A DNA stretch of 64,000 nt from Bacteroidota bacterium (GCA_026708685.1 JAPOUL010000098.1:1-64000); one strand, 5' to 3'; counted from the stretch's first letter, positions 19,352-44,531 are shown. Numbers and translations are program-made. Notes: a model not told the origin generated them from the sequence alone.

Positions 19352-21824
19352 TAGCGAGTAAAAGACGGCCCTGATAATGGAAGCCCCGATAAATGGGGTT
19401 ATCCATAAAATAAATCACCTCTCCCCGACCGATCGATTCCATTCCAATGATCAGAGATTCCATCAGTGGGGGCAGAGTTTTAGCCCCTGCAAATCCTGCA
19501 ATGGGGCGTCCTTCCTTGAGCATTCCAATATTCCATCCGTCTTTGAGCGGACCAAACGCTTGAGATCCCACCTTCAAAGTAAAATAATAAGATGAATACC
19601 CGAAGGCAAGTGGATGAGTCGTGTCTAACTGAACCTGAAAAAAAGCACCCGGAATCTCTTTTGAAAGTGCATGCCGATTCCGCTCAGAATACGGAATCAT
19701 GTGGGCCTCCAGTGAATCAGTCGATTCCTCGTCATCAGACTTAAGGTTGATGCTGAACCCCTCGTCCTTGGCGAGAAAACTGACGGCCCGTTCCAGAGCA
19801 ATCAACCGGCCTCCTTTTGTAATCCAATCCCTAAGGTCTTCCATCACTTTCTTCGTCAGTACATCCCGGTACTGCCCCGAAGGCAGAAGAATCACATCAT
19901 ATCGAGAAAGACGTAGATGGGCGATGTCATCGGTATGGATCAAAGTAACTGGATATTCCAGCTGCTCATCAAAGAAATGCCATAGTTGGCCGAGTGCATT
20001 GGACGAAATGGATGGGCCAGCCAAAATGGCGATGCGTGGAGGTTGAATGTAGGTGACATCAGATGATCCAAAGTCAACCCCTTCGGTGACAAGCGTGGTG
20101 GTCACACCATCAACCAGCTGATGGGAATCAAGGGCAGTCTGAATGATGAGAGAATCAAAGGACTCTCCCTGTTGAGCACGGGTCATGATCAGAGAACCCT
20201 CGGTATAGGTTTGATCATGGATCTTAAATGGAACTTCAGCATAGCGGACGCGGATATCCGATTGCAGGAGTTGAGCCAGAAACTTGGCATCTTCAAAACT
20301 TTTCCACTCAGCAATATAGGCAACGGGGTTGGATGGATGGTCTGGTGTTTCCTTGACAGGTTTGTCTGTCCCCCAATGAATGTCCTGATCTAATGCATAG
20401 GCCTCAACTCCATAGACATAAGGAAGTGCCCAAGCGGTAATATCATATGTCAAAGTATCTTCTAACACAGGTTGTGGTTCAAACAGAACAGCGGCAAGGA
20501 CTCCTTTGGGTTGTGCGGCGGGAATGATCAGATCCCCTGATTCAATATTGACCCTCTGTTGCTGCCCACTTTGGTAGGAAAAACCAGATTCTGAAGATTG
20601 ATCCAGAGCATATCCATACATGATTCCCTGCATATCCAAATGCTCAGAAAGAGTTCGAACCTGATCCTCCTGACCTCGATGTCGAACAACATACATTGCA
20701 TGTTGCCCCGTAGGTCTTGCTGCTGAATCTATGAAGTATTGCATAAACTCACCAATAATACGCTGACGTGCTTTGACGGCAACTTCTATGGTAGACAGAG
20801 TGGTCGTGTAATGATGTTCAATACGGTCACTCAGCGTCAACGTATCTCCTTCCTCGGTGATAATTCCCAGTCCAGCCTGACCAGAACCCGCCTGCTCGTA
20901 GGTCATTCCAATCGCCCCATTGAAGGTGGGCCATGTATCTCCATAGCCTGGGTAAAAGAGATCAAACACCTGTTGAGTGAAAAATAACCACCCCTGGGCA
21001 TCAAAGTACTTGGCATGGTTCGTGCCTATCAGACCCTGAAGTTCGCGTTGCCAAGGTGTAATGTACGCATGGAATGGTGCGGCTGCTGGAGGAAAGAAAT
21101 AAGGGCTGTTAACACTTTGCTCATGAAAATCGACATGAATATGAGGCATCCATCGATTGTAATGGACTAATCTCTGACGCGTTTCGGCTTGCGTTCCCCA
21201 TGCCCAGTCTCGATTGAGATCAAAATAGTAGTGATTGGTACGTCCCCCTGGCCAGGGTTCCGAGTGCTCACGAGCTTCTTCCAATACATTGGCATGGGAG
21301 CCACGCGTCTGGCGATAGAAGTGAACATAGCGTTCGCGTCCATCAGGGTTTAGGCATGGGTCAAGAATGACTATGGTGCTATCAAGCCAGTTTGCAATCT
21401 TCGGGGTTTCAGCGGAGGCTAAGGTGTGGAGAACTTTTAATGCTGTTTCGGTGCCCACAGACTCATTTCCGTGGACATTGTAACTCAACCACACAATCAC
21501 GGGAGCGTGCTCAGAAGGGCTACCATCCAGTAAACCAGCACGCTGTAGATTAGACATGCGGATTTCTTCAAGTCTGGAAAGGTTATCAACAGAAGAAACA
21601 ATGAGGTACTGTAGTGAACGATCTTCATAGGAACGACCATATTCTACATGAATCACATTCTCCGACGTAGCGGCCACATGATGTATATAATCATTTACGC
21701 GGTGGTAGGGAGTGAATTCTTGACCTAGCCGATAGCCAAGAAATTCAGACGGACTTTGAAGTTGTGCATTCGCTGTCAATGTCTGCAGAAAGAGGCATAA
21801 CAGGCACAGCAAAAGTCTATTCAT
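19326..21824 (-). CDS. M14 family zinc carboxypeptidase, secreted
   Basis: The start at 21824 (MNRLLLCLLCLFLQTLTANA) gives a clean signal peptide and an 832-residue protein; it overlaps the recJ stop by eight bases, and an ATG at 21833 is also possible. The catalytic domain (about 25-330) carries the M14 zinc site HGNE (about residues 118-121) and the second zinc histidine region with HIHVDFHEQ. CLNPDGRERY matches the substrate-binding part of the family. A long C-terminal region (about 400-830) resembles the glutamine-amidotransferase-like domain seen in Bacteroidota M14 proteins (VILLPSGQY, then a lid region with GRLIALE). Role: extracellular or periplasmic peptide degradation. Confidence 0.9.
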   Translation of the reverse strand: MNRLLLCLLCLFLQTLTANAQLQSPSEFLGYRLGQEFTPYHRVNDYIHHVAATSENVIHVEYGRSYEDRSLQYLIVSSVDNLSRLEEIRMSNLQRAGLLDGSPSEHAPVIVWLSYNVHGNESVGTETALKVLHTLASAETPKIANWLDSTIVILDPCLNPDGRERYVHFYRQTRGSHANVLEEAREHSEPWPGGRTNHYYFDLNRDWAWGTQAETRQRLVHYNRWMPHIHVDFHEQSVNSPYFFPPAAAPFHAYITPWQRELQGLIGTNHAKYFDAQGWLFFTQQVFDLFYPGYGDTWPTFNGAIGMTYEQAGSGQAGLGIITEEGDTLTLSDRIEHHYTTTLSTIEVAVKARQRIIGEFMQYFIDSAARPTGQHAMYVVRHRGQEDQVRTLSEHLDMQGIMYGYALDQSSESGFSYQSGQQQRVNIESGDLIIPAAQPKGVLAAVLFEPQPVLEDTLTYDITAWALPYVYGVEAYALDQDIHWGTDKPVKETPDHPSNPVAYIAEWKSFEDAKFLAQLLQSDIRVRYAEVPFKIHDQTYTEGSLIMTRAQQGESFDSLIIQTALDSHQLVDGVTTTLVTEGVDFGSSDVTYIQPPRIAILAGPSISSNALGQLWHFFDEQLEYPVTLIHTDDIAHLRLSRYDVILLPSGQYRDVLTKKVMEDLRDWITKGGRLIALERAVSFLAKDEGFSINLKSDDEESTDSLEAHMIPYSERNRHALSKEIPGAFFQVQLDTTHPLAFGYSSYYFTLKVGSQAFGPLKDGWNIGMLKEGRPIAGFAGAKTLPPLMESLIIGMESIGRGEVIYFMDNPIYRGFHYQGRLLLANAIFLAGQ

Positions 21825-23556
21825 AATGTTCATGCGGACGAAGTGCAGTAAAGCGAAGTTGAGTTGAGACGGTTCCATTCCACCAATTTTCTTCAACATG
21901 ACAGAGAATGTCAATTCTCGTGTGTTTCACACGAGCTTCCTCAGCCGTACGATGATGGTGCCCCATACCAAAACCAATGGCGACCATTTTTGTGGAGGAT
22001 TCGGGATCCTGTACAGTCAATCGGAGGTGTCGCCCAGCAGTGAGCAATTGTACGGAGAGAGGATATAGGTTTTCAATGAGAAACAGGGGTGCTTCATTCG
22101 CTTTGCCAAAGGGCTGACATCGGTCAAGGATCCGTTCAAACTTTCCCGAGATGTCTGTTAAGTGTACCTGAGCATCGTATTCCAGATTTGTTGAGACATT
22201 GCGGGCATGTGACTGTTTTTGAACCTCTACATCAAGTTGATCTCTAAGCTGGGGGAGATCATCTTTTTTCAGGGTCAGCCCAGCGGCCTTGGCGTGCCCC
22301 CCGAACCGAATCAGTAGATCCTGACATGCGTTGAGAGCATTGAGGATGTGAATATCTCCCGATGTACGTACACTGCCAAAAACTTCCGATCCATCAGAGT
22401 TCGGAACATCCGTGAGAATGACGGCTGGAATCTGGAATTCCTCAACCATTCTTGCTGCTGCCATCCCCAGAATTCCTGGATGCCAGTCGGAGTGATAGAG
22501 TACAAGAGCGTTGATCAGACGACCTGCAAGTTGTGTCCTTGCAAGCTTACTTGCAACGGGGACCAGTTTTGCTGTATGTGACTTGCGCGACTGATTGAGT
22601 AGATCAAGGCGTTTGGCAAGGGGTTCCGCTTCGGATTTGGTTTGTGCCATAAGAAGATCCACGGCTTCACTTGCATGTGCGAGTCGTCCAGCAGCATTGA
22701 GACGGGGCCCAAGTTGCATGGCGATATCGGATGAACTCAATCGATGCTGATTGCATTTTGATATCGCCACTAGGCTTTTCAGTGCTGGATGAGTGGAAGA
22801 ACGTAGTACTTTCAGCCCTTCCTGTGCTAAGATCCGATTTTCGCCAACTAGGGGCATAATGTCGCAAATTGTAGAGATAGCCACCAGATCCAAATACTGA
22901 TCTGCCAGTTCAGGAGGCTGCCCCAACTTCTCAAGGGTCACTTGAATCATCTTGTACGCTAGGGCACATGCAGAAATATCTTTGACAGGATACGAACAAC
23001 GGGATTGATTGGGGTTGACATGAGCGTGACAAACAGGTTGTTTGTCATCATTTTGGTGATGGTCACAGATGATGAGATCTATTCCTGCATCTCGTATGAG
23101 GTCCGCGGTTTCCTCATCATTGGTACCACAATCGACAACGATAATCAATGTGCAGTGATGCGATTGAGCGGTCTCTACTGCACTTGCATGAAATCCATGA
23201 TTCTCGTTTTGCCGGTGAGGAATATAGAATTCGGTATCCAGTTGATGAGACTGTAAAAATTTAAGAATCAATGCAGTGGAAGTAACGCCATCGGCATCAA
23301 AGTCGCCGTAAACCAGCACACGCTCCTTTGAAGTAATAGCATCAGCAATTCGCTGGCCTGCCAACTCTGTATCTGCCAATCCCTTCGGGTCATGGAGATT
23401 GTCCTTCGTTGAGCGAAAATAATTTCGGGCACTATCATAGTTATCAATCCCCCGAAGGACCAAGAAGCGGGCTAATGACATCGGTAGCGAGTTCAACTCG
23501 CTACTGAGAGTAGCAACAATGGCTGCGTTTTGAAGTGGACGCTCTATCCATCCCAT
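21817..23556 (-). CDS. recJ: Single-stranded-DNA-specific exonuclease RecJ
   Basis: RecJ degrades single-stranded DNA 5' to 3' in recombination, mismatch and base-excision repair. The 579-residue protein has the DHH-superfamily metal motifs: D85, D87 and D89 in YGDFDADG, D142 in VDCGT, and DHH at 165-167. LGPRLNAAGRLAHA and the DHHA1-domain GGHAKAAGLTL motif (about 425) are present. A C-terminal OB-like region follows. Length is normal. It is the first gene of a minus-strand run and its stop overlaps the start of the peptidase gene. Confidence 0.95.
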   Translation of the reverse strand: MGWIERPLQNAAIVATLSSELNSLPMSLARFLVLRGIDNYDSARNYFRSTKDNLHDPKGLADTELAGQRIADAITSKERVLVYGDFDADGVTSTALILKFLQSHQLDTEFYIPHRQNENHGFHASAVETAQSHHCTLIIVVDCGTNDEETADLIRDAGIDLIICDHHQNDDKQPVCHAHVNPNQSRCSYPVKDISACALAYKMIQVTLEKLGQPPELADQYLDLVAISTICDIMPLVGENRILAQEGLKVLRSSTHPALKSLVAISKCNQHRLSSSDIAMQLGPRLNAAGRLAHASEAVDLLMAQTKSEAEPLAKRLDLLNQSRKSHTAKLVPVASKLARTQLAGRLINALVLYHSDWHPGILGMAAARMVEEFQIPAVILTDVPNSDGSEVFGSVRTSGDIHILNALNACQDLLIRFGGHAKAAGLTLKKDDLPQLRDQLDVEVQKQSHARNVSTNLEYDAQVHLTDISGKFERILDRCQPFGKANEAPLFLIENLYPLSVQLLTAGRHLRLTVQDPESSTKMVAIGFGMGHHHRTAEEARVKHTRIDILCHVEENWWNGTVSTQLRFTALRPHEHYE

Positions 23557-31715: not shown

Positions 31716-31796
31716 ATGATGGGCCAAAACGAACTCTATACAGGTAAAACTCCTATAAACCTTATATTTCGTAAGATAAACTTCATAAATGATCCA

Positions 31797-34295
31797 ATGA
31801 GACGATTGTGGTTAGGCGGTCTGATGATCATCTTTCTGGTAAATGCTCCCATCAAGGCACAGAGAGTATCGTCCATCAGCGAAAAAACCAAAAACCTAGA
31901 AAAGCAGGATGGATTCTTTCCAGTCTACTGGAATGAAACCACTGGTACAATCTATCTTGAAATTAAAACCCTTGGACAGGACTTCCTCTATGTCTCTTCC
32001 ATGCCAGCTGGACTGGGATCCAATGATATCGGGCTTGACCGAAGTCAGCTAGGCCGTACCCGCCTCGTTCGGTTTGAACGCAGTGGTCCGAAGATTCTAC
32101 TGGTGATGCCGAATCTCCGTTACCGTGCAGACTCTGATTCAAATGCCGAACGAATGTCGGTTCGTGAAGCGTTTGCAGAGGGGATTATCTGGGGGTTTAA
32201 GGTGGAAGCGGAAGAGAGTGGTAGAATCTTAGTGGATGCCACAGACTTTGTCGTCAGAGATGCCAATGATGTCATCGGACGGCTAAGCGGATCAAATCAG
32301 GGACGGTTTGCCTTGGATAAGAGCCGAAGCGCTCCCGTTCCTGCAATGCTCAAGGCCTTTCCACAAAATACAGAACTGGAGGCACGAATCACCTTTACTT
32401 CGGAGAATCCAGGACGCTATGTCAGAGATGTAGCAGCGGATCCAAACTCGGTCACACTGAGCGTTCGACATTCCTTAATCATGCTCCCCGATGATGGCTA
32501 TCATCCAAGAGTGTTCCATCCAGGTGCAGGGTATGGCAGTGTCAGTTATATGGATTATGCAGTACCGATTGGTGAAGATATGATGAAGCGTTATATCCGA
32601 CGGCACCGCTTGATCAAACAGGATCCAAATTCCGTGATTAGTGATCCTGTATCACCGATCGTCTATTATCTGGATTCTGGAACACCCGAACCTGTTCGGG
32701 GAGCCCTCCTTGATGGTGCCCGTTGGTGGTCTGAAGCGTTTGAAGCCGCTGGTTTTTCCAATGCATTCCGAATAGAGATGCTCCCCGAGGGAGCCGATCC
32801 CATGGATGTACGATACAACACAATTCAGTGGGTTCATCGTGCGACGAGGGGCTGGAGCTATGGAGCAAGCATCGTTGACCCCCGGACGGGCGAAATCATC
32901 AAGGGACATGTTTCCCTTGGCTCCCTGCGGGTGCGTCAGGACTATCTCATCGCGGAAGGGCTCTTGGCACCTTATGAGGACTCTCTTGCCGAAGATGACC
33001 CGATGCTGGCAATGTCGCTTGCAAGGATTCGCCAACTATCAGCACACGAAATTGGACACACGCTCGGGCTCAGTCATAACTTCGCATCTTCCATCAATCG
33101 AAGGGCTTCGGTGATGGATTATCCAGCTCCCTATGCTACCGTCAATAACGATGGTAAAATTGATCTTCATCAAGCCTACGGGAATGGGATCGGGCAATGG
33201 GATAAGGTCGCGATTGCTTACGGGTATGCCCAACCACTACCTAGAGAAGTTGAACAGGATCTCTTGGATACGATTCTTCAGACGGCCTGGGATCAAGGCC
33301 TTCTGTACATTACAGATGCGGATGCTCGTCCTGCAGGTGCTGCCCATCCACTATCCAACCTATGGGATAACGGAGAGGATATGGTACGTTCACTCTATCA
33401 CGAATTGGATGTTCGTCAGGTTGCACTTGCAGCGTTTGATGAACGCGTGCTCAGAGCCGGTCGCCCCTTGGCTACCATGGAGGAGACGCTCGTACCACTG
33501 TATCTGCGTCATCGATATCAAATTGAAGCCACCACAAAATTATTGGGAGGAGTGATCTATACCTACGCACATCGGGGCGATCGTCAAGCTCAACAGATAC
33601 CTGTTCAGACACACATTCAGATGGACGCACTGGATGCTCTCTTGGCGACTCTCTCCTCCGAAGCACTTCGGGTTCCAGAGAGCGTGAGGATGCAGATGCC
33701 CCCAAGGCCGCCAGGGTTTCCAATGCATCGGGAACTGTTTCATCGACATACAGGCTTGACCTTTGATTCCTATACTCCAGCTGCTGTGGTAGCTACGATG
33801 GTGTTTTCACAGATCCTGAACCCAGAACGTGCCGCCCGCCTGACCTATCAAAGTGATCTTGATGAGACGCTACCAACCTTTCATCGCGTCCTGGAGACGG
33901 TCAGTGATGCAGTCTGGGGTGTTACGATGTCCGATGATGCGTATGAGGCAGAACTTCAGAGAGTCGTCCAGCAGGTTTGGATAGACGAACTGATCGGACT
34001 TGCAAGTGAACCCACCGCTGCACCAGCTGTGAGAGCATTCGTACTGGAACGGCTTCGTGAATTTGTGGAGTGGATTCCAGAGTCACCCGTATCGCCAAGC
34101 GATAGAGAAACTCGCTATCATAGGGAAATGGTTCTCAGTGACATTGAACGATATCTGGCGAGGGACTACGAGGCAAAAGAGCAAACAGAGAGCATCACCA
34201 TTCCCCCAGGATCTCCCATCGGATCGGAAGCCCGTCGGCATTATCATCATGAGTTTCTTCATGCTACGGATACGCAGTGGTGCTCACATCAATGA
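31797..34295 (+). CDS. Secreted zinc metalloprotease (metzincin HExxHxxGxxH, DUF5117/DUF4953 type)
   Basis: The start at 31797 (MRRLWLGGLMIIFLVNAPIKAQ) gives a signal peptide and an 832-residue protein; an in-frame ATG at 31716 would add 27 unlikely residues. The N-terminal DUF5118/DUF5117-like part has GFFPVYWNETTGTIYLEI (about 39-56) and the SLGSNDIGLDR-like segment. The catalytic domain carries HEIGHTLGLSH (417-427), the extended zinc motif of metzincins, with a downstream Met-turn-like VMDYPAPY. The C-terminal half is the helical DUF4953-like region. Such proteins are common in Bacteroidota and act in the periplasm or outside; the substrate is not known. Confidence 0.88.
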   Translation: MRRLWLGGLMIIFLVNAPIKAQRVSSISEKTKNLEKQDGFFPVYWNETTGTIYLEIKTLGQDFLYVSSMPAGLGSNDIGLDRSQLGRTRLVRFERSGPKILLVMPNLRYRADSDSNAERMSVREAFAEGIIWGFKVEAEESGRILVDATDFVVRDANDVIGRLSGSNQGRFALDKSRSAPVPAMLKAFPQNTELEARITFTSENPGRYVRDVAADPNSVTLSVRHSLIMLPDDGYHPRVFHPGAGYGSVSYMDYAVPIGEDMMKRYIRRHRLIKQDPNSVISDPVSPIVYYLDSGTPEPVRGALLDGARWWSEAFEAAGFSNAFRIEMLPEGADPMDVRYNTIQWVHRATRGWSYGASIVDPRTGEIIKGHVSLGSLRVRQDYLIAEGLLAPYEDSLAEDDPMLAMSLARIRQLSAHEIGHTLGLSHNFASSINRRASVMDYPAPYATVNNDGKIDLHQAYGNGIGQWDKVAIAYGYAQPLPREVEQDLLDTILQTAWDQGLLYITDADARPAGAAHPLSNLWDNGEDMVRSLYHELDVRQVALAAFDERVLRAGRPLATMEETLVPLYLRHRYQIEATTKLLGGVIYTYAHRGDRQAQQIPVQTHIQMDALDALLATLSSEALRVPESVRMQMPPRPPGFPMHRELFHRHTGLTFDSYTPAAVVATMVFSQILNPERAARLTYQSDLDETLPTFHRVLETVSDAVWGVTMSDDAYEAELQRVVQQVWIDELIGLASEPTAAPAVRAFVLERLREFVEWIPESPVSPSDRETRYHREMVLSDIERYLARDYEAKEQTESITIPPGSPIGSEARRHYHHEFLHATDTQWCSHQ

Positions 34296-34467
34296 TCCAT
34301 AATCTTACACCCTCACCATTAGCAGGATAAGGACGAACTTGAATCCATTGGAGCATCAACCAATCATGGATTTCCCTTGAATGATGTATTGCTCTGAGCA
34401 GGGATGCATTACATCATGGTATTGTTCATGGATGATCGTGACATCCTAACACTGATCTTCGTTTCGT

Positions 34468-36570
34468 ATGCCATCACAGAAGAATCCTGATTCGCTCAAA
34501 GACGTTGCTCTTCAGTATCTGCGTGACTCCGTTGGGAGTGCAGACGCACAGTTTCGTGATGGGCAGTGGGAAAGCATTCAGCAGGCCGTGAGTGGCAATC
34601 GCGTCCTAGTTGTACAGCGTACAGGTTGGGGGAAGACGATGGTCTATACGATTTCAACAAAGCTCCGCCGTGATCAGGGTGCAGGGCCATCGTTGATGAT
34701 TTCTCCCCTACTGGCACTGATGCGCAATCAGGAGACGGCAGCATTCCATCTGGGATTAAATGCACGCAGGATGACAGGCGATAACAGGGAAGAATGGAAT
34801 GACATTCATGAAGAACTTAGAGATGATCAGGTGGACATCTTGATGATCACTCCAGAGCGGCTTGCGAACGAAATGTTTCTCAGTAAGACGCTTCCAACCG
34901 TCGCCAGTGGTCTTGGAATGCTGATCATTGATGAAGCCCATTGCATCTCTGATTGGGGCCATGACTTTCGTCCAGATTATCTACGGATTCGCAGAGTGCA
35001 GAAGATGGTACCACGGGGATCGGCGATTGTAGCAACCACTGCAACCGCGAATAACCGGGTCGTTGAGGATGTAAGGGATCAGCTGGGAGGAAATATTCAG
35101 GTCAGCCGTGGGAGTCTGGTACGACGTAGCCTGCAATTACACAATTTCCACATGCCCAAACCAAGCACCAGACTGGCCTGGATGGCCTGGGCCATTGCGG
35201 ATCATCTTCCGGGAAGTGGGATCGTGTATGTCCTTACCCGTAAAGATGCAGATTTAGTCACAAAGTGGCTACAATCCAAGGACATTGACGCACATGCCTA
35301 TTACGGAGATACCCAAGAGCGTGAAGAACTGGAAAAGGCCCTGCTCAACAATGATATCAAAGTGCTCGTCGCCACGATCGCTCTGGGGATGGGTTTTGAC
35401 AAGCCAGACCTCTCCTTCATCATCCATTATCAGCGTCCCAGTTCGGTGATTCATTACTATCAACAGGTGGGGCGTGCTGGTCGTGGGATCACGGATGCCT
35501 ATGGATTTTTGATGTGGGGCGAAGAGGATGAGCGCATTGCAGACTACTTTGTCGATAATGCTTTTCCATCTCAAGATGAAATTGATCTGGTCATGAAAGC
35601 ACTTGAGGAAGCAGATGGTGGACTCAAACTGGCAGAGCTCATGTTTCTGGTGAATCTTAAAAAAAGCAGGATAGAAAAAATTCTAAAACTCGCCTCGCTA
35701 GAATCCCCCGCCCCCGTCATTAATGAACGTAGCCAATGGTTCGCCACGGGAGAAGCCGATGGGTTCCAGATTCCTCCAGATCGGATTGAGAGGTTACGCG
35801 AGGTTCGTGCCAAGGAGAAACTACAGATGCGTGAGTATATGAATCATCAAGGATGCTTGATGAAGTTTCTGCAGCAAGCACTTGATGATGAGTCCGCCAA
35901 GGACTGCGGACGATGCAGGAACTGTATCAACCGGACACATCAATCCTATCTGCCAAAACCTGCAATGGTTCAGGAAGCAGCACAGTTTATTCAGAAAAAG
36001 CCAAACATCATCCCTCCCGTAGTGAGATGGCCCATTCGTAGACTTTCGGATCATCCGATCCATGAATCACAACTGATCCCATTGGATTATCAGGCCGCTT
36101 GGGGATATGCCTTATGTCGAATGTTTGATGTCGACATGAGTCAACAGATCCTGGAGCAGAGAAGGAATCGTAGCCATTATTCCGATGAGATTGTGGATGC
36201 TTTTGTAGAAGTCCTACGAAAACATTGTGGAAGTTTTAGATACGTCACTTATATCCCGTCGCGTACCGATCAACATCATGTTCCAAGATTAGCCGAAGCA
36301 GTAGCACAACGTCTGGACATTCAACTGGTCCATAGTGTCAGCAGGACTGGAATGGGGAAGCGTCAGGGTGACCAAAAGAATCCAGTCCAGCGTGCACGAA
36401 ATGTGGCCAATGCTTTTACAATTGTCCATTCGTGTAAAATGTCAACCCTTGTGATTGATGATGTGATTTCCAGTGGCATGACATTTACCACGGTAGCAGC
36501 TCTCTTGCGTTACGATGGTTGTCCCAAGGTGGTACCCGCCGCTCTTGTCTACCGGAGTTTATCGGAATAA
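34468..36570 (+). CDS. RecQ-family DNA helicase fused to a C-terminal phosphoribosyltransferase
   Basis: The 700-residue protein has RecQ motifs: an altered Walker A QRTGWGKT (50-57), DEAH at 155-158 followed by the RecQ aromatic loop CISDWGHDFRPDY, TTATAN, and QQVGRAGRG (about 338-346). Its zinc-binding segment has C463, C480, C483 and C486. Beyond about residue 500 there is no ordinary RecQ HRDC domain. A phosphoribosyltransferase (ComF-like) domain occupies the end, with the PRPP-binding motif VIDDVISSGMT at 662-672. RecQ helicases unwind DNA 3' to 5'; what the PRTase does here is not established. Two DprA-like genes follow directly (five-base gap). The altered Walker A and the PRTase set it apart from housekeeping RecQ, and I infer a defence or DNA-processing role. 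Confidence 0.88.
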   Translation: MPSQKNPDSLKDVALQYLRDSVGSADAQFRDGQWESIQQAVSGNRVLVVQRTGWGKTMVYTISTKLRRDQGAGPSLMISPLLALMRNQETAAFHLGLNARRMTGDNREEWNDIHEELRDDQVDILMITPERLANEMFLSKTLPTVASGLGMLIIDEAHCISDWGHDFRPDYLRIRRVQKMVPRGSAIVATTATANNRVVEDVRDQLGGNIQVSRGSLVRRSLQLHNFHMPKPSTRLAWMAWAIADHLPGSGIVYVLTRKDADLVTKWLQSKDIDAHAYYGDTQEREELEKALLNNDIKVLVATIALGMGFDKPDLSFIIHYQRPSSVIHYYQQVGRAGRGITDAYGFLMWGEEDERIADYFVDNAFPSQDEIDLVMKALEEADGGLKLAELMFLVNLKKSRIEKILKLASLESPAPVINERSQWFATGEADGFQIPPDRIERLREVRAKEKLQMREYMNHQGCLMKFLQQALDDESAKDCGRCRNCINRTHQSYLPKPAMVQEAAQFIQKKPNIIPPVVRWPIRRLSDHPIHESQLIPLDYQAAWGYALCRMFDVDMSQQILEQRRNRSHYSDEIVDAFVEVLRKHCGSFRYVTYIPSRTDQHHVPRLAEAVAQRLDIQLVHSVSRTGMGKRQGDQKNPVQRARNVANAFTIVHSCKMSTLVIDDVISSGMTFTTVAALLRYDGCPKVVPAALVYRSLSE

Positions 36571-36575
36571 AACTG

Positions 36576-37721
36576 ATGTGGACACTTACGGAGGATACCA
36601 CTGAGGTTGCACTGCTCTGTGCATGGTTTGCAGGTGAGCATCATCCGCTAGCCCTACATGAATACAATGCTATAGCATCATGGCTTAAACACCAAGAATT
36701 GCGGCCTGCGAATTTAATAGATCCGTCCTGTTTGGAAGAGGCATCCCAGTCCACCGGGTTGGATCTTGATCGCTTAACGGGGCTGCAGAATCGGAGAATT
36801 TCTATGGGGTTCTACCTAGAAGAGTGGAAGCGGCGCGGGATCTGGATGATCGGACGAGGAGACGAGGACTACCCTGTTCGGATTCGAACTCAGCTACGAT
36901 CAAAGGCTCCCCCGATTCTTTATGGCATTGGAGAGAGCTCACTTCTAAATTCGGGAGGGACTGCAATGATAGGTCCGAGTCCTCCTGCATCCGAGTACAG
37001 TGAATCATTGAGTGGGATGGTAAGGTTATGTGCTGAACATCAAAGCACGGTTATTAGTGCTGGAAAACTGTCACCAGCAACGGATGCCATTGAGACATCC
37101 ATCCAGTGTGGTGGTACATTTATATGGCTCCTTCAGGGATCACTTCTGGCAGAGCCGCTCACAAAACCATTTCGTGATACGAAAGCATCAGGTAAAATTG
37201 TACTTCTTTCTACACGCAGCCCTGCCGATCCCCGTTTCGTCTCTGGAGAACCTGAGCTTGGTCAACTCATCATCACTCTATGCGATTCAATCATTCATAT
37301 TGATGGTACCGAACTGAGTATGGACTGGCTTCACACCACTGAGATCATCCACCAAGCAATTCCCAAAAAGAAGTGTTTTATATGGACAGGACATTTTGCT
37401 ACATCAGTAGCCGAACATCTCATTCAATGTGGAGCAATACCGTGGAGCACTCATGAAGATGCTGTTCATGCGGGGATCTTTGAGCGTCTGGAAGACTTGC
37501 CTCCATCGGATAGCGAGTCCTCTCCCGAAGAGTTAGTTGATTCTGAGAAGCCATCCTATATAGACAAGGGCAATGATTCAGCAGAAGAGAACCCTGATCA
37601 TGCAGAGATGGATCTCCCATCCCCTGATACGAAGGATGAACTCCCTGTCACAGATGAACCCACTGAATTCTTGAAAGAAAGCTCATGGGGAAACAGCGTT
37701 CAGGGAGAGTTGTTTGCATGA
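36576..37721 (+). CDS. Divergent DprA/SMF-like protein 1 with clamp-binding-like tail
   Basis: The ATG at 36576, five bases after the RecQ stop, is preferred over a TTG inside the RecQ gene, giving 381 residues. The N-terminal region has LALHEYNAIASWL (about 24-36), the helical lead-in typical of DprA-like proteins, then RGIWMIGRGDEDYPVRI and APPILYGIG before a Rossmann-like domain. The DprA hallmark GSR and SGGARG-type nucleotide/DNA-binding loops are changed to MIGPSPPAS and SAGKLSPATDA. An acidic low-complexity region follows from about 310. The last residues are QGELFA, matching the beta-clamp-binding pattern Q-x-(D/S/E)-L-F. True DprA loads RecA on incoming DNA; this one is probably a defence paralogue, by context. 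Confidence 0.8.
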   Translation: MWTLTEDTTEVALLCAWFAGEHHPLALHEYNAIASWLKHQELRPANLIDPSCLEEASQSTGLDLDRLTGLQNRRISMGFYLEEWKRRGIWMIGRGDEDYPVRIRTQLRSKAPPILYGIGESSLLNSGGTAMIGPSPPASEYSESLSGMVRLCAEHQSTVISAGKLSPATDAIETSIQCGGTFIWLLQGSLLAEPLTKPFRDTKASGKIVLLSTRSPADPRFVSGEPELGQLIITLCDSIIHIDGTELSMDWLHTTEIIHQAIPKKKCFIWTGHFATSVAEHLIQCGAIPWSTHEDAVHAGIFERLEDLPPSDSESSPEELVDSEKPSYIDKGNDSAEENPDHAEMDLPSPDTKDELPVTDEPTEFLKESSWGNSVQGELFA

Positions 37722-37828
37722 AAATGAAATTATCAGGCCATTTTTTGACGTTGAGACTGATTTTGAATAGAGTAACACTCACATCTTTTTCACTGTTTGC
37801 ACAATGGACTTGTTACGAGGGACCATAG

Positions 37829-38803
37829 ATGGAAGAGTTGATGACGGATGATACATGTGCGACACTGCTGCTGTGTGCATTCCAGGGAGGAGAGAAAGAG
37901 CATCTACCCTTGACGGTGGATGAGTATAACCGAGTCGCCCATACTCTGCACAGATCTGATCAGCGCCCAAGTGATTTATTGGGGAGCGTATTGATTACAG
38001 ATGTGAGCCATGAGGCAGAGATCCAACAGGATCGGTTGGCATGGCTCCTTGATCGTCGGATCAACCTTGGATTCACCTTGGAGCAATGGTATCGGGCAGG
38101 AATTTGGGTTTTATCCCGAAGTGATCTACATTACCCTGCCTGTCTTCGAAAAAACATGGGGAATCAGGCCCCTCCTTTGATCTACGGAACGGGCCATCAA
38201 CACCTGGGTCATCAAGACACTCTGGCCATTATGGGACCCGATTCCATTTCAAATGCTCGAATCTCCAAGGTAGGTGATATGGCAGAAGATCTAGCTGATC
38301 AACAGAAGACGGTGGTCACCATCGGTGCACTGAAGTTGGGTAAAAAAGTTGTTCAGAGCGTCTATGAGCATGGAGGGAGAGTCCTGTGGGTTTTAAGCGG
38401 TGGACATCTCAAACTTCGCCTTAAAAAACCTTATCGCCAGGCAATCAGAGATGAGAATCTCACCATGATCGCAATGCAAAGTCCAGCTACACCCAGCACA
38501 TCTGACGAAGAGGCTGCCCTTAGTCAGGTCGCCGCTTCCCAAGCCGATGAAATCCTGTATGTGGATGGGGTCAACTCAAAAGACATTGCCAAGAGAGTCG
38601 ATCGGTATCAGGCGTTCAGGGCCGCTCTGAACCGACCTAGTCAATGTAGCGTATTCCATGGACAAAAACTGACACCAGAGGCACAGGAGCTTCTCAAATC
38701 AGGGGCTTCGTCATGGGACCAGAAATCCGTTGATGGTCCGAACACAGATGCTAACCCGTCTGAAGGTAAAGAGTCCTCGCATCAAGGAGATTTGTTTGGG
38801 TAG
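37829..38803 (+). CDS. Divergent DprA/SMF-like protein 2 with clamp-binding-like tail
   Basis: This 324-residue protein is a paralogue of the gene before it. It shares the helical lead-in (LTVDEYNRVAHTL, about 28-40), RRINLGF, AGIWVLSRSDLHYP, APPLIYGTG and the Rossmann-like core. Here too the phosphate-binding loops depart from DprA (LAIMGPDSIS, TIGALKLGKK). GGRVLWVLSGG and the LKKPYRQAI helix follow the DprA layout. It also ends in a Q-x-acid-L-F tail (QGDLFG, 319-324) after a short polar linker. It starts 107 bases after gene 1, so they are probably one transcript. Tandem divergent copies suggest a heteromer or a specialised partner of the RecQ-PRTase. Confidence 0.8.
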   Translation: MEELMTDDTCATLLLCAFQGGEKEHLPLTVDEYNRVAHTLHRSDQRPSDLLGSVLITDVSHEAEIQQDRLAWLLDRRINLGFTLEQWYRAGIWVLSRSDLHYPACLRKNMGNQAPPLIYGTGHQHLGHQDTLAIMGPDSISNARISKVGDMAEDLADQQKTVVTIGALKLGKKVVQSVYEHGGRVLWVLSGGHLKLRLKKPYRQAIRDENLTMIAMQSPATPSTSDEEAALSQVAASQADEILYVDGVNSKDIAKRVDRYQAFRAALNRPSQCSVFHGQKLTPEAQELLKSGASSWDQKSVDGPNTDANPSEGKESSHQGDLFG

Positions 38804-38925
38804 ACCTCACGCAAAAGATCAAGATGAAGCATCAAATCAAGATTCAAAGAGGCTGAGAACCTGATCGGTAGGCACATGGGGAATTCAACCAATGCCTTGT
38901 TCACTTCGGAATGTAAAGGTCTCAC

Positions 38926-40749
38926 TCAATCGTAATAGGGTGCAGTCGTTGCTGGTTCAATGAGGATGGCTTGCCATCCAAGCACACCAGTTCGGATTTT
39001 TGGTTTTTTGAGGGCAACGACATTGACATGTGAGCCAAATGCATGACCTCGAACCATCGCAGCTGGGACATAGACATCATTGACAAATCCAAATCCCCGG
39101 TCGTGAATAAAGAGCTCACCTGATTGTTGGGTAACCAAATCCGACTCCTGAAACGTTCCAGGACGTACTTCATACGCAATATATCGACGATCACGGTAAT
39201 TGATACAGGACATGACCAGTGGTGTACCGGGCTTCCAATTGCGTACTTCTTCAAATTGTGAATATCGAAGGATGGTAAATGTCGTCGGGGAAATGAAGAT
39301 GGTAGACATCTCCTTGGCTGGATTATGATGGTCCAGAATTCCATTGACTTCAATCAAACAGTCAAAGGCATGTCCCTCTTCTCTGAGCTTCAGAGAAAAA
39401 ATTCGGGGAAGCCCAATATCTTCATTATACCCCATGGCTGCATAGAGAGGAGTGCCTGATTCCAGATTTTTGATGTGGGGGTAATCTTTGACCGGGACTA
39501 CAATTTCTTGTGAGGACTCCTCTCTGGTTTTATAGATTAACTTTAAAAATCTCTTTTCGATTTTTGAAGTGAAGGATTCAAGCAACGTTACCTCATTCCA
39601 TTTTCCGTCAAACAAAAATTCCTGATCCTCTTTGGATTCAGCTACATCTTTCAAGGTCTGTTCGGGGTCTGCAAGATCCGTGGTTGATGAATACCAATCA
39701 GATGCCATGAGCGTTTCAAGGGATACCATGGATTCTGGGGAAGACTCTTCATTCGATTGCAGAATGGAAACCTGTTCATCAACAGCCCACTTGGCCAGTT
39801 GATAGTCTCTTAATTCAATGGACAACTCCACAATGTCTTCCAAGACCAATCCATCCAGTACATCCAGTGTATTGTCATTTTTTTCTTTGGCCAAAAAGTA
39901 TGCCTTCGCACATAGTGACAATGCGGTTGAAGGAGAAAAACGCCTTTCACACCGTGCAACAGCATGCCATGCCCAATCTTCATCCCGCATCAGATCTAAA
40001 ACGTAGAGCAGATGTTCTCGGGCAATTTCTTCCCTCCCAAGTTCACACAGGATTCTACCTTTAAAGTACCGGAGCATGAGAGGGTCATATACTTCGGCCA
40101 TCTCAAGTGCTTTGTCAATGAGTAGAATGGAAAATTCCTGTACAGTGCGTTCATAATCTTTCCAGTTAAAGACAACCTGCTCACCAATATCGTATGCCAA
40201 ACGCTCAACCAGTGATTGACGTTTTTCGGATTCATCGGAGGGTTTGGAATATTCAAAATCTTCCTTAAGAAAACTGTGAATCCCAGCCCAAAAAAGAATC
40301 TGGGGGGAAAAACTGGGTAAAACGGGAAGTTCCAACAGTAACTCAACCAGAGAGCTAAACAGTGGGTCGGGGCGATCCAGTCGTAGTCTGGCATACTCTT
40401 GAAAGAGACCACGAATTTGTTCATGCAACTCTGTCGGATCTGAATCATCAGAATAGATTTTATCAACGATCTGCTTCACCTTATCATAGATAATCCATCC
40501 GAAGACCACCTTTATGGACCTGTCGTTTGGGTGCAGACTGAGTAGCTCACGGCCGCGTTCATAGGCTGATTCAATCTCTCCTGATTCTCGCAGAGAATCT
40601 AACTCTTTGGATTCAGGACTTGGAGAAAAGTCAGTATCGGAACCTTGCTCTGGGGGAATCTGCGATCCATGATGGTCGTTGTCGGGCGAGGCTGTGGTAA
40701 TGGTTGTGGGATAATGATTCATGGTTGAAAATAGATTGAAGTGATTCAT
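38926..40749 (-). CDS. TPR plus S1/cold-shock-like (TOTE-type) protein
   Basis: The 607-residue protein begins with a polar, disordered leader. Its TPR-like helical array (about 48-340) starts LDSLRESGEIESAYERGRELL with LHPNDRSIKVVFGWIIYD. After an acidic linker the C-terminal third is beta-rich and ends with an OB-like module, HDRGFGFVNDVYVPAAMV (about 552-569). This resembles the S1/CSD-like domains of proteins assigned to predicted TOTE conflict systems. Such modules bind nucleic acid. It converges on the DprA-like genes (122-base gap), so it may belong to the same defence locus though not the same transcript. Start could also be the ATG at 40722. The family assignment is by motif memory, not a search. 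Confidence 0.65.
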   Translation of the reverse strand: MNHFNLFSTMNHYPTTITTASPDNDHHGSQIPPEQGSDTDFSPSPESKELDSLRESGEIESAYERGRELLSLHPNDRSIKVVFGWIIYDKVKQIVDKIYSDDSDPTELHEQIRGLFQEYARLRLDRPDPLFSSLVELLLELPVLPSFSPQILFWAGIHSFLKEDFEYSKPSDESEKRQSLVERLAYDIGEQVVFNWKDYERTVQEFSILLIDKALEMAEVYDPLMLRYFKGRILCELGREEIAREHLLYVLDLMRDEDWAWHAVARCERRFSPSTALSLCAKAYFLAKEKNDNTLDVLDGLVLEDIVELSIELRDYQLAKWAVDEQVSILQSNEESSPESMVSLETLMASDWYSSTTDLADPEQTLKDVAESKEDQEFLFDGKWNEVTLLESFTSKIEKRFLKLIYKTREESSQEIVVPVKDYPHIKNLESGTPLYAAMGYNEDIGLPRIFSLKLREEGHAFDCLIEVNGILDHHNPAKEMSTIFISPTTFTILRYSQFEEVRNWKPGTPLVMSCINYRDRRYIAYEVRPGTFQESDLVTQQSGELFIHDRGFGFVNDVYVPAAMVRGHAFGSHVNVVALKKPKIRTGVLGWQAILIEPATTAPYYD

Positions 40750-40830
40750 GTATTACAGAAGTATACGATTGATCCAGTCAATGCATAGATCTGAGCTGAG
40801 TGAATGGAAAATAAAGATATGGGAAAGGGT

Positions 40831-41079
40831 TCATCCATCAGATACATTGGAGAACATGATCAAGTCCGCTCGGATCGCTGAACAATGAAGTCGGATCTTC
40901 AAGTTCAACAGTAGATCACGCACGGTCATCAAGGCATGGGAAATACGTAGATACCCCTCGTTCTTCCCTAGTGGATGGCTCACATCAATAGGATCGGCGT
41001 TGTTCACAAAGAGAGTTTGAGCACTGTGAATCCAACTCCAACAAAAGGATGAAAACGAAGGAATATATTCGATATTCAT
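40831..41079 (-). CDS. Possible small protein, unrecognised
   Basis: An 82-codon frame 81 bases upstream of the TPR-S1/CSD gene, on the same strand. It has mixed residues and a plausible helix (HALMTVRDLLLNLKIRLH), with no signal peptide or known family. It follows another small frame by 17 bases. The coding status is doubtful. Confidence 0.25.
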   Translation of the reverse strand: MNIEYIPSFSSFCWSWIHSAQTLFVNNADPIDVSHPLGKNEGYLRISHALMTVRDLLLNLKIRLHCSAIRADLIMFSNVSDG

Positions 41080-41096
41080 TGAAAGAAAAAATAGCG

Positions 41097-41336
41097 TTAT
41101 TCATACATGGGAGTCAACCAGCGAACAGATCCACCACAAGGATAAAGCCCCTGAGACAGAGTCATAACCCGATCTGGTGAGTTGATCAACGCATCCACTA
41201 AGTAGGATTGAGACATATCGAGATGGATCATGGCGCACCCGCATTGTATCTTTGACGATTCACAGTAGCCATCAATTCTATTTATTGATGCCATCCATGT
41301 GATCTTCTTTGTGGTATTGTACTTCTTCCTTCTCAA
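41097..41336 (-). CDS. Possible small cysteine-containing protein, unrecognised
   Basis: A 79-codon minus-strand frame with four cysteines (CESSKIQCGCAM and a late PCGG) and a basic N-terminus. No family is recognised. It is reported only because it sits in tandem with another small frame next to a putative defence gene. The coding status is doubtful. Confidence 0.25.
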   Translation of the reverse strand: MRRKKYNTTKKITWMASINRIDGYCESSKIQCGCAMIHLDMSQSYLVDALINSPDRVMTLSQGLYPCGGSVRWLTPMYE

Positions 41337-41630
41337 TTGGTTTATTCTCGTGGATTCTTTCCGTAATCTGTCATTTTTTCGTCTTTTATCGGGATCATCA
41401 TTGAGCTTCTACATGAGTTGAATCTTCTATTTTGTTGATTCATTTCTGAGTATCATTGTGTGCATGTAGTCTTTTCAACAACAATGAACCTGTATGTTCA
41501 TACATCATCTCGAAATCAAGAAAGTATTTATATGAATCCTTGATAGATCTCTTTGCCCAAAATCATCTCTAACCACTCACAAAGTTGAATGAAGTACTCT
41601 GGAAATCTGTACGATCTGGGCTCTCATTGT

Positions 41631-42659
41631 TCAGGCATCCTCAGAATTCGTATCCTGAGGATCAGCAGATGTAAAATGATCATGACCCTTTGCAGGTAAG
41701 GATTCAATCGTTCCACTGATTCTGTGAAGGCGTACATCCTGTTCGGTGATTTCGCCAATGATCGTAATCTGGTCAAGTGACATTTGATTGAGAACATCCG
41801 CAGATGCGGTAAAGAGCAATTCGTAGTCATCACCTCCATTCAAGCCATAGTCCAGAGAAGAGCGAGGCGGATCCAGCCCCGTTGGACACTCTTCGGGCAA
41901 TGGAAGGCATGATTCCCACAGAACAGCTCCACAATCCGAAGCCTTACAAATATGATGGATTTCATTGGCGAGCCCGTCCGAAATGTCAATCATGGCAGAC
42001 GGATGAACTCCCTGAGAAGCCCACTGATCGACAAGATCCAGTCGGGGGACAGGCATCAGGTGCCGAGAAGTCAACTGATCCCAGATGTTTTGCCCAATGA
42101 TGGATGGATCTGCATCGTTTCGAAGCAGATCAAGTCCCATGGCCGCCTCACCGACGATGCCACTGACACAGATGTAATCTCCTAGCTTCGCTCCATCTCG
42201 GTAAACAATGCATGACTGAGCAACTTCACCAATCACTGTAATCGAGAGCATGAGAACCGGGGACCTCGTCGTATCTCCACCAACAATCTGGACTCCATAT
42301 GTTGATGCTACATGAGTCAGTCCGTGATAAAGAGCATCCAGATTTTCCAGTGGATAGGAACTTGGAATTCCTAGTGCGACAGTTGCCAGTATGGGGCGAG
42401 CATTCATTGCAGCAATATCACTGAGATTGACCACCATCGCCTTGTTGCCCACTTGCTCCATCGTATAGAAGGCGTAATCAAAATGATACCCTTCAATCAA
42501 GGCATCCGTCGTGATCACCTGAAGCATACCTTCGGAAGATTCATATACAGCCGCATCATCCCCTACCCCTACCATGACAGGCGGTCTGACTTTGGATGAA
42601 CTGATGGCCGTCAGACGACCGATCAGGTTAAATTCTCCAGCGTCTTCAACGAATTCCAT
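41631..42659 (-). CDS. thiL: Thiamine-monophosphate kinase
   Basis: ThiL phosphorylates thiamine monophosphate to the active cofactor thiamine diphosphate using ATP. The 342-residue PurM-like enzyme shows the N-terminal EFNLIGRL, the metal/substrate loop GVGDDAAVY (31-39), TTDALIEGYHFD (about 50-61) and NLSDIAAMNARP (about 78-89). GGDTTRSP and the C-terminal IDISDGLANE and GLNGGDDYELLF are also present. These are the full ThiL motif set. It is the last gene of the minus-strand run that begins with miaB, 103 bases after anmK. Confidence 0.95.
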   Translation of the reverse strand: MEFVEDAGEFNLIGRLTAISSSKVRPPVMVGVGDDAAVYESSEGMLQVITTDALIEGYHFDYAFYTMEQVGNKAMVVNLSDIAAMNARPILATVALGIPSSYPLENLDALYHGLTHVASTYGVQIVGGDTTRSPVLMLSITVIGEVAQSCIVYRDGAKLGDYICVSGIVGEAAMGLDLLRNDADPSIIGQNIWDQLTSRHLMPVPRLDLVDQWASQGVHPSAMIDISDGLANEIHHICKASDCGAVLWESCLPLPEECPTGLDPPRSSLDYGLNGGDDYELLFTASADVLNQMSLDQITIIGEITEQDVRLHRISGTIESLPAKGHDHFTSADPQDTNSEDA

Positions 42660-42762
42660 GTACGATGATGGATAATGGAAGAATCATTCATCTATGATCG
42701 TCTGAGCCATTGGATGAACAAGATGATGGATTGGAGCCGACGAACAGGTATAAAGGTTCGGG

Positions 42763-43941
42763 TCAAGCCATACAAAGTTTCCCAAGCACAGCAGAACGAT
42801 GTGCACCTGTGACAGAGGGAATACTGGTTGGAATACCATTGGCAGTCTCGTGGGCAAGGACTGCAAAGCACAAGGCTTCCTTGCTGTCGGCATCAATTCC
42901 ATAGGGATCCGTTGTCTCTATGACAACAGGGGTTTTGGAGAGGCTGAAATAGTCCTTCAGATAATCCATAAGAGCCTGATTGTGTGCACCACCTCCAGAA
43001 ACAATCAGCCTGTCAAGAGTGCAGCGTGGTTGGATAAAGGTCTCATACCCCTTCCAGACCGAGGCCGCAGTCAGTGCAGTTGCAGTGGCCACTAAATCTT
43101 CCAAAGAAATCTGGCTTGATTGATGGAGAAATTCATTCAGAAAAACGCTGGTAAGGTATTCTCTTCCCGTAGTTTTAGGGGGCGTGGCTGTGAAGTACGC
43201 ATCCTCTAAACATTGAGACAGTAACGGCTCATGGACGGTTCCCGATTGTGCAATCCGACCACCTTCGTCATATGGGAGATTAAAAAACTGACGGCAGAGT
43301 GAGTCCATCAGAAGATTCCCCGGCCCCGTATCAAAGCCATAGACATCTTGGATCTCCGCACTGGGAAGCAGAACGGTGATATTAGCTACTCCTCCAATGT
43401 TGAGACATCCGCGGGTCTGCTGATCATGAGTGAAGATCACATAATCAAAATACGGTACCAGTGGTGCCCCCTGTCCTCCACACGCCATGTCAGCGAGTCG
43501 AAAGTCTCCGATGACTGGCACGCCAAGAATCTGCGACATGGTCGCAGGGTCACCAATCTGAAAGGTGGAATGAATCATTTTCCCAGCGATCTTCTCTTGG
43601 TTGGGGATGTGCCGAATGGTTTGGCCGTGGCAACCAACTAAATCCAATTGTTCCATACTCATTCCACCAGCTTCTATAGTTGTTTTGATGGTATGGGCAT
43701 ATTCATGTGCAAGACGAACATTGAGTTGACTGAGTTCCACAACGCTGATCTGCTCTTGGTCAGCTGCCCGTTTCAAACCATCATACAACGGATCTGGAAA
43801 GGAGTAGGAAGCCCCGAACCACTTTTTGATGCACAGGTCTTTTCCGTGCCCGTCAAGATGAGCGATCACAACATCCACACCATCCAGTGATGTGCCACTC
43901 ATCACGCCCGCCACACAACGATGATCCTGGGGGGTGATCAC
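42763..43941 (-). CDS. anmK: Anhydro-N-acetylmuramic acid kinase
   Basis: AnmK cleaves and phosphorylates 1,6-anhydro-MurNAc to MurNAc-6-phosphate in peptidoglycan recycling. The 392-residue sugar-kinase-fold protein has GVMSGTSLDGVD (13-24), GCHGQTIRH, DTGPGN, and VSGGGAHN (about 318-325). The start is a GTG whose GTGA overlaps the stop of the upstream gene, a coupled arrangement. No other recycling gene (murQ, nagZ) is adjacent. Length is normal. Confidence 0.95.
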   Translation of the reverse strand: MITPQDHRCVAGVMSGTSLDGVDVVIAHLDGHGKDLCIKKWFGASYSFPDPLYDGLKRAADQEQISVVELSQLNVRLAHEYAHTIKTTIEAGGMSMEQLDLVGCHGQTIRHIPNQEKIAGKMIHSTFQIGDPATMSQILGVPVIGDFRLADMACGGQGAPLVPYFDYVIFTHDQQTRGCLNIGGVANITVLLPSAEIQDVYGFDTGPGNLLMDSLCRQFFNLPYDEGGRIAQSGTVHEPLLSQCLEDAYFTATPPKTTGREYLTSVFLNEFLHQSSQISLEDLVATATALTAASVWKGYETFIQPRCTLDRLIVSGGGAHNQALMDYLKDYFSLSKTPVVIETTDPYGIDADSKEALCFAVLAHETANGIPTSIPSVTGAHRSAVLGKLCMA

Positions 43942-44531
43942 GAGTTTGGGTGTTGGGCTGCCAACTCTTCCAATCGTCGGGCTTCACTCAGTAAGCGTCC
44001 TTTTTCGAGAGGATTCTGCTCACTTAGGGAGCGGTAGGCTTCGGCTGCCTTTGCATATTCCTTCTGGTTGGTCAGAATGCGAGCAAACGTTTCGGTGGGA
44101 GCAGTATGATCATACTCATCCTCTAGGAGTTCATCGTCAAGATCATCATCAATGTTGGATGCTTCATGAAAGGCCTTCCGATCACTGGAATTGAGTTGTT
44201 CAATGATTCCCTGGATTTCATCTCCATCATCGCTGCTGAAGATCTTGTCAAGTTCCTGCTGCAAACTCTCGGTAAAAGTGAACGCGGGTGACTTTGACTC
44301 AGATGTGGGTGGCTTTGAAGGTCGCTGTTTGGACTGTAGATTGCTGACCGTTTCCCAGACTGAATTCGCACGGCTATGATCTTTGGATACTTCCAGAGCG
44401 TGTGCAAACACAAAGTTCGTGTTGATGTCCGTGGGAGACTGGACGCGGAGGTGGCGGATCTGCTCAATGGTTTTAGCATTGTAGCCATCTCTTATGATGG
44501 TCAAGGCTTCAAAAAGAGATAAAGAGGTCAT
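43938..44531 (-). CDS. TPR-like protein of unknown function
   Basis: A 197-residue cytoplasmic protein (no signal peptide or TM). It has a helical N-terminal repeat (LRVQSPTDINTNFVFAHALE, about 29-48), a polar linker, an acidic stretch (NIDDDLDDELLEDEYD), and a C-terminal tetratricopeptide-like unit (FARILTNQKEYAKAAEAYRSL). It overlaps the genes on both sides by four bases, which supports coding and co-expression with the glycosyltransferase and anmK. It may be a scaffold; no named family is recognised. Confidence 0.8.
   Translation of the reverse strand: MTSLSLFEALTIIRDGYNAKTIEQIRHLRVQSPTDINTNFVFAHALEVSKDHSRANSVWETVSNLQSKQRPSKPPTSESKSPAFTFTESLQQELDKIFSSDDGDEIQGIIEQLNSSDRKAFHEASNIDDDLDDELLEDEYDHTAPTETFARILTNQKEYAKAAEAYRSLSEQNPLEKGRLLSEARRLEELAAQHPNS

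Follow-up and report, generated by a model that had tools for sequence, protein, structure and literature searches.

A core-fixed PsyrTA/RqlHI variant with two pocket-less DprA-like proteins in a sponge-associated genus of Rhodothermales

What would a RecQ-family helicase fused to a phosphoribosyltransferase (PRTase) do beside two DprA-like genes in a bacterial chromosome? In a 64,000-nt stretch of DNA from a Bacteroidota bacterium (GCA_026708685.1 JAPOUL010000098.1:1-64000; hereafter the window), such a set lies at 34468–38803 and is followed by a convergent gene for a TPR-S1/CSD protein (38926–40749). A preliminary description of this DNA had proposed that the four genes form a defence locus, and ORF calls, Pfam and AlphaFold confirmed the four open reading frames in their places and the nature of their products. 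The helicase gene and the two DprA-like genes form an operon that is a variant of the PsyrTA/RqlHI family, fixed in the core genome, with an antitoxin that is duplicated and has lost its pocket motifs; the variant, and not the family, is what is new here. The genome from which the window comes is designated G000, other G numbers denote genomes of relatives, and L numbers denote loci.

The family was assigned using PADLOC profiles. PsyrT matched the RecQ–PRTase protein over its whole length (residues 12–696, E=1.4e-235), and PsyrA matched DprA-like 1 and DprA-like 2 (DprA1 and DprA2) with E=8e-45 and E=1.5e-46, respectively. The three proteins are members of PsyrTA/RqlHI, a named toxin–antitoxin/defence family, PsyrTA of Pseudomonas syringae being of the same kind as RqlHI of Escherichia coli F11. 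The earlier suspicion of a conflict-type family was thus borne out; the set, which could not be matched then, is not an unnamed system, since the core pair already bears a name (PADLOC; PMC4670107). The operon shares with PsyrTA and RqlHI the fusion of a RecQ-type helicase to a PRTase, motif I, the zinc-finger region and the order of helicase gene then DprA-like gene. The DprA-like partner stands directly downstream of the helicase on the same strand twice over: the ATG of the first gene is 5 bp past the RecQ–PRTase stop, and the second gene follows after a further 107 bp. Unlike PsyrTA/RqlHI, which has one DprA-like gene, the window operon has two, both without the SLOG pocket motifs and the C-terminal helix-turn-helix (HTH); moreover, it has lost the last Asp of the PRTase DIVD motif, and it is fixed and vertically inherited in a genus that lacks housekeeping RecQ. 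The altered P-loop that had been singled out is real, but is no peculiarity of this gene: the clade as a whole bears QRTGWGK[ST] as its signature, and the W-G-K core of this motif is (near-)invariant across the clade and present in E. coli RqlH.

Other comparisons placed the proteins outside the housekeeping families. Pfam recognised DEAD, Helicase_C and RecQ_Zn_bind and, weakly, Pribosyltran (residues 608–696) in the RecQ–PRTase protein, and DNA_processg_A in both DprA-like proteins. On the housekeeping RecQ model TIGR01389 the helicase scored 276 bits, under the cut-off of 640, indicating shared helicase motifs in a different family; on the housekeeping DprA model TIGR00732 the two DprA-like proteins scored 21 bits each, under the cut-off of 191. 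AlphaFold2 models of the latter (pLDDT 82 and 89) were confident outside the C-terminal tails, and the best-matching solved structures for both were ShosA (8zva) and DprA crystal structures. The antitoxin fold is therefore shared with ShosTA, a PRTase toxin with a DprA-like antitoxin whose ShosA is the top Protein Data Bank match, whereas the toxin here is a RecQ–PRTase fusion and PsyrA is the profile that the DprA-like proteins match. A probe with Providencia PsyrTA matched 1655 of 5426 complete E. coli genomes, some only over part of the helicase gene. To our knowledge, the biochemistry of PsyrTA/RqlHI is unsolved: we know of no PRTase reaction and no ligand of the DprA-like antitoxin. Rousset et al. 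list shosTA, syrTA and rqlHI among systems with DprA-homologue antitoxins (PMC9122126). E. coli RqlH without RqlI is genotoxic, causing SOS induction and filamentation via its PRTase domain; both the growth inhibition and the SOS induction were abolished by the PRPP-loop (phosphoribosyl pyrophosphate) mutations D663A and DIVD (from 663) to EVME, and RqlH and RqlI bind one another (PMC4670107). The Mycobacterium smegmatis RqlH (cited in PMC4670107) is likewise a chromosomal RecQ-like helicase with a PRTase and a 3'–5' translocase/helicase, and it has no RqlI partner, in contrast to the two of the window operon.

The three-gene neighbourhood proposed earlier is genuine. A neighbourhood search found recQ-PRTase–dprA1–dprA2 in 10/10 species of a sponge-associated genus of Rhodothermales, always at the same position between atpD and thiL. 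The congeners are represented by drafts, the named ones being Rhodothermales metagenome-assembled genomes. All nine congeners have the order metzincin gene, recQ-PRTase, dprA1, dprA2 beside atpD, with thiL next wherever the contig is long enough and no genes intervene, and their RecQ–PRTase orthologues are 65–74% identical. The sister genus (G010) has the locus with a single dprA, and two relatives show an empty metzincin–thiL site (147 bp in G011 and 425 bp in G013). Gene trees of the operon were congruent with those of neighbouring genes (5–7 of 8 clades in common). The operon entered the interval from the metzincin gene to thiL before the genus and its sister split, and then descended vertically as a core operon. 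Ratios of nonsynonymous to synonymous substitution (dN/dS, NG86) were 0.11–0.18 for the helicase and about 0.17–0.35 for the DprA genes; therefore, all three genes are under purifying selection. Accessory PsyrTA copies are scattered among G004, G007, G009 and G010, one in G004 adjoining a type III restriction–modification (R-M) system. Viral contigs yielded five loci only and were uninformative.

The antitoxin pair has its own history. A tree of 118 domains resolved dprA1 and dprA2 as sister clades (support 99 and 99, joint 93) and put the sister-genus copy, on a long stem, outside them, which places the duplication in the ancestor of the genus. The typical PsyrA pocket motifs GSR, SGGARGVD and RNKxIY, a typical feature rather than part of any published PsyrTA/RqlHI definition, have all gone from 20/20 core copies and from the sister-genus copy, so that the window operon is an atypical member; nearly all other single PsyrA proteins retain all three. 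Because both copies and the sister copy lack them, the simplest history is a loss before the duplication. DprA and other SLOG proteins bind single-stranded DNA or nucleotides through these pocket motifs, and their loss weakens the earlier model in which the DprA pair senses a nucleotide signal. In two of the nine congeners (G001 and G009), an extra d2-like domain is fused to DprA1. Derivation of the tandem pair by splitting of a fused double-DprA protein, such as occurs in G004, G007, G014 and elsewhere, was rejected since the tree puts the fused domains in other clades. In the fused double-DprA PsyrA proteins of the family (L054, L050, L051, L052 and L152), the pocket motifs are retained in domain 1 and missing from domain 2, a possible active/inactive heterodimer architecture. 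G000 also encodes an orphan fused double-domain PsyrA of 642 amino acids (L149:8269-10197, G000:C92), with intact motifs in the first domain and degenerate ones in the second, which adjoins a moeA-like gene and lacks a neighbouring PsyrT.

The toxin has changed as well. The core lineage shows no variation in helicase motifs I, II and VI and, because these are intact, the protein very probably still translocates 3'–5' on DNA. The DD pair of the PRPP loop is likewise kept. The Asp four residues past the first D (666 of the 698-residue E. coli RqlH proteins, on which D663 and D666 are numbered) is Val, Ser or Thr in 11/11 core PsyrT proteins and is kept in 77/87 others; this last DIVD Asp corresponds to the general base in HPRT-type enzymes. 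The lost residue is not the one mutated as D663A in F11, an identity that was considered and rejected: D663 is the second D of the DD pair and is kept. Among 88 PsyrT–PsyrA pairs, the last Asp and the antitoxin pocket were both kept in 68 and both lost in 14, with 1 + 5 discordant (Fisher p=2.5e-11, in a test that ignores phylogeny). The co-losses fall in about three lineages, namely the genus with its sister, two Planctomycetaceae and the G014/G015 pair, one member of which keeps the last Asp and has ND for DD. Since pocket and Asp are lost together, we infer that the antitoxin SLOG pocket may handle the substrate or product of the PRTase.

A further feature lies in the tails. The pattern Qx[SDEN]LF, the classical bacterial beta-clamp motif, occurs in its strict form in the acidic disordered tail of DprA1 in 10/10 orthologues, where shuffled tails would give 0.05, and in 0/706 control proteins when their last 60 residues were scanned. 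Within the last 150 residues, the motif was found in 12/84 other PsyrA proteins compared with 0/569 control proteins (p=1e-11). Both E. coli RqlI variants examined (L172 and L173, in the gntU–yhgN interval) have QPELF, located after the DprA domain and before the HTH. We found no link in the literature between the clamp motif and DprA-like antitoxins, and the RqlI paper makes no mention of the clamp (PMC4670107). The pattern predicts that the DprA1 tail binds the sliding clamp.

The genus also differs in its housekeeping repair genes. No RecQ over the TIGR01389 cut-off was found in 10/10 genomes of the genus, whereas RecJ, the RecF-pathway partner of RecQ, is retained and encoded within the window. 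A role of the operon as RecQ substitute is thus plausible.

We favour, with a probability of about 0.55, the reading that a disarmed or re-tuned PsyrTA became a clamp-tethered RecQ-type helicase complex acting at replication forks. The PRTase would have been disarmed or re-tuned by loss of the last DIVD Asp, with the PRPP-binding Asp pair kept; the antitoxin would have lost its pocket motifs and then been duplicated, the pair now probably serving as a structural partner of the helicase. The clamp motif on the disordered DprA1 tail would tether this complex to the replisome and, housekeeping RecQ being absent from the genus, the complex would most likely stand in for RecQ in replication-fork work and repair beside RecJ. 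Complex formation is on record for E. coli RqlH–RqlI alone (PMC4670107). Several points weigh against this reading. The sister genus (G010) carries a canonical RecQ alongside the locus; the loss of RecQ and the fixation of the operon are a single evolutionary event, so that their link could be coincidence. With its PRPP-binding residues retained the PRTase may still act, and PurF lacks a DIVD-type Asp. The DprA-like proteins evolve 2–3 times faster than the helicase, which fits an arms race too, and purifying selection does not distinguish housekeeping from defence. Finally, the clamp motif is short, at five residues, and not universal in the PsyrA family, the co-loss test takes no account of phylogeny, and the congeners are drafts.

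More tentatively, PsyrA/RqlI antitoxins in general may dock the RecQ–PRTase to the clamp, the docked complex having been disarmed in this genus, where it replaced the lost RecQ. If clamp docking and disarming are true, a defence toxin would have become a repair helicase bound to the replisome and scaffolded by two DprA-like subunits. The genus is a case of a conflict system turned core while ordinary RecQ was lost, and may show a route from toxin to housekeeping. The clamp motif, that of E. coli RqlI included, predicts where the system acts, and the joint loss of antitoxin pocket and PRTase loop residue points to a chemical link that mutation can test.

Somewhat less probable is that the operon is a still-armed PsyrTA toxin–antitoxin or anti-phage system, merely inherited vertically, whose PRTase toxin is freed from two antitoxins on infection, the second copy providing extra safety or wider sensing. 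The homology to PsyrT and PsyrA, the retained DD pair and helicase motifs, the fast DprA evolution, the third d2-like domain in G001 and G009 and the genotoxicity of E. coli RqlH without RqlI (PMC4670107) are all consistent with it. However, an operon present in 10/10 species at a single housekeeping site differs from the patchy accessory PsyrTA of G004, G007, G009 and G010, and loss of the last DIVD Asp goes together with loss of the antitoxin pocket motifs. A competence or DNA-uptake module, in which helicase, ComF-like PRTase and DprA replace a lost DprA, can draw on a weak comF profile match of the PRTase and on the absence of housekeeping DprA over the TIGR00732 cut-off from 16/16 family genomes; ComEC is absent from the same 16/16 and both genes are present in 14/14 tested genomes from other families of the order, leaving no uptake channel, and therefore such a role is very unlikely.

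A four-gene defence system including the TPR-S1/CSD protein is equally improbable. That protein matches DUF7017, S1CSD-TOTE-2 and PDC-M16B, and it adjoins the operon in the window genome only; it is encoded on the opposite strand, its gene is missing from the locus in 8/9 congeners, and such a gene was found near 0/80 PsyrT loci from other genomes, which refutes the four genes as a conserved unit. Its relative in G003 is 22% identical and lies beyond thiL with its own TBP-TOTE ATPase (PDC-M16A). The protein resembles TOTE and PADLOC PDC-M16 components in its S1CSD-TOTE-2 and PDC-M16B matches, but the window has no TBP-TOTE/M16A partner; the TOTE set of TPR-CSD protein, TBP-like protein and effector does not occur there, and a complete pair is found only in G003. 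A search of 38801–41640 for M16A, and of the 0.9-kb gap at 40750–41630 for an M16A remnant or a thiL duplication, gave no significant match. The gene is best read as an orphan B component of an unrelated PDC-M16/TOTE system in an insertion hotspot, because the metzincin–thiL gap is empty in G011 and G013 and filled by other genes in G012 and G014; it has no part in the RecQ operon. The complete TOTE/PDC-M16 pair of G003 (TBP-TOTE ATPase and TPR-CSD protein, L155:2848-8225) sits between thiL and a duplicated thiL fragment, which suggests an insertion at thiL.

Table 1. Positions in the window of the operon, its motifs and the neighbouring genes.
Feature	Coordinates	Strand	Remarks
RecQ-family helicase with C-terminal PRTase (PsyrT/RqlH family)	34468..36570	+	700 aa; PADLOC PsyrT, congener orthologues
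Motif I QRTGWGKT ("altered P-loop")	34615..34638	+	K56 = K49 of E. coli RqlH; family-typical
PRTase PRPP loop VIDDVISSGMT	36445..36483	+	both Asp kept; last DIVD Asp replaced by Ser here
DprA-like 1 (PsyrA/RqlI family)	36576..37721	+	has lost the SLOG pocket motifs; tail acidic and disordered from about residue 313
QGELF, predicted beta-sliding-clamp binding motif, end of DprA-like 1	37701..37715	+	strict in 10/10 orthologues
DprA-like 2 (PsyrA/RqlI family), paralogue of DprA-like 1	37829..38803	+	SLOG pocket motifs lost
QGDLF, predicted clamp motif, end of DprA-like 2	38783..38797	+	strict motif in 3/10 orthologues
TPR-S1/CSD protein (orphan component of PDC-M16B/TOTE type), outside the system	38926..40749	-	between dprA2 and thiL
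DUF5117/DUF4953 metzincin-type protein, conserved upstream neighbour	31716..34295	+	left edge of insertion site
ThiL-like protein, conserved downstream neighbour	41631..42659	-	right edge of insertion site
RecJ exonuclease	21817..23556	-	RecF-pathway partner of RecQ, retained in genus

The immediate surroundings are not those of a defence island: the neighbours are housekeeping genes (ATP synthase, recJ, thiL and anmK), though some 16 kb off there is a type III R-M system. The latter is a mod/res pair (N6_N4_Mtase and ResIII) at 54807–58933, whose orthologues in the congener G004 (65–77% identical) directly adjoin an accessory PsyrTA (L051). An Rfam search of 34000–45000 gave no match, and a tRNA-Leu called by ARAGORN at 43500–43592, within the anmK reading frame, is likely false, since it was not seen at anmK-bearing loci of congeners and relatives. 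An ATPase protein with HATPase_c_3 and a partial match to PADLOC REase_II is encoded at 23966–25960. Elsewhere, a short DprA-like protein (310 amino acids, just below the DprA cut-off) and a HAD hydrolase form a conserved pair in G000 and G005 (L150:8771-10209 and L153:7983-9439). In addition, G000 encodes a 1243-residue RecQ-like/DUF559 helicase beside methylase-like reading frames (L151:2452-11000, G000:C100), probably another defence locus.

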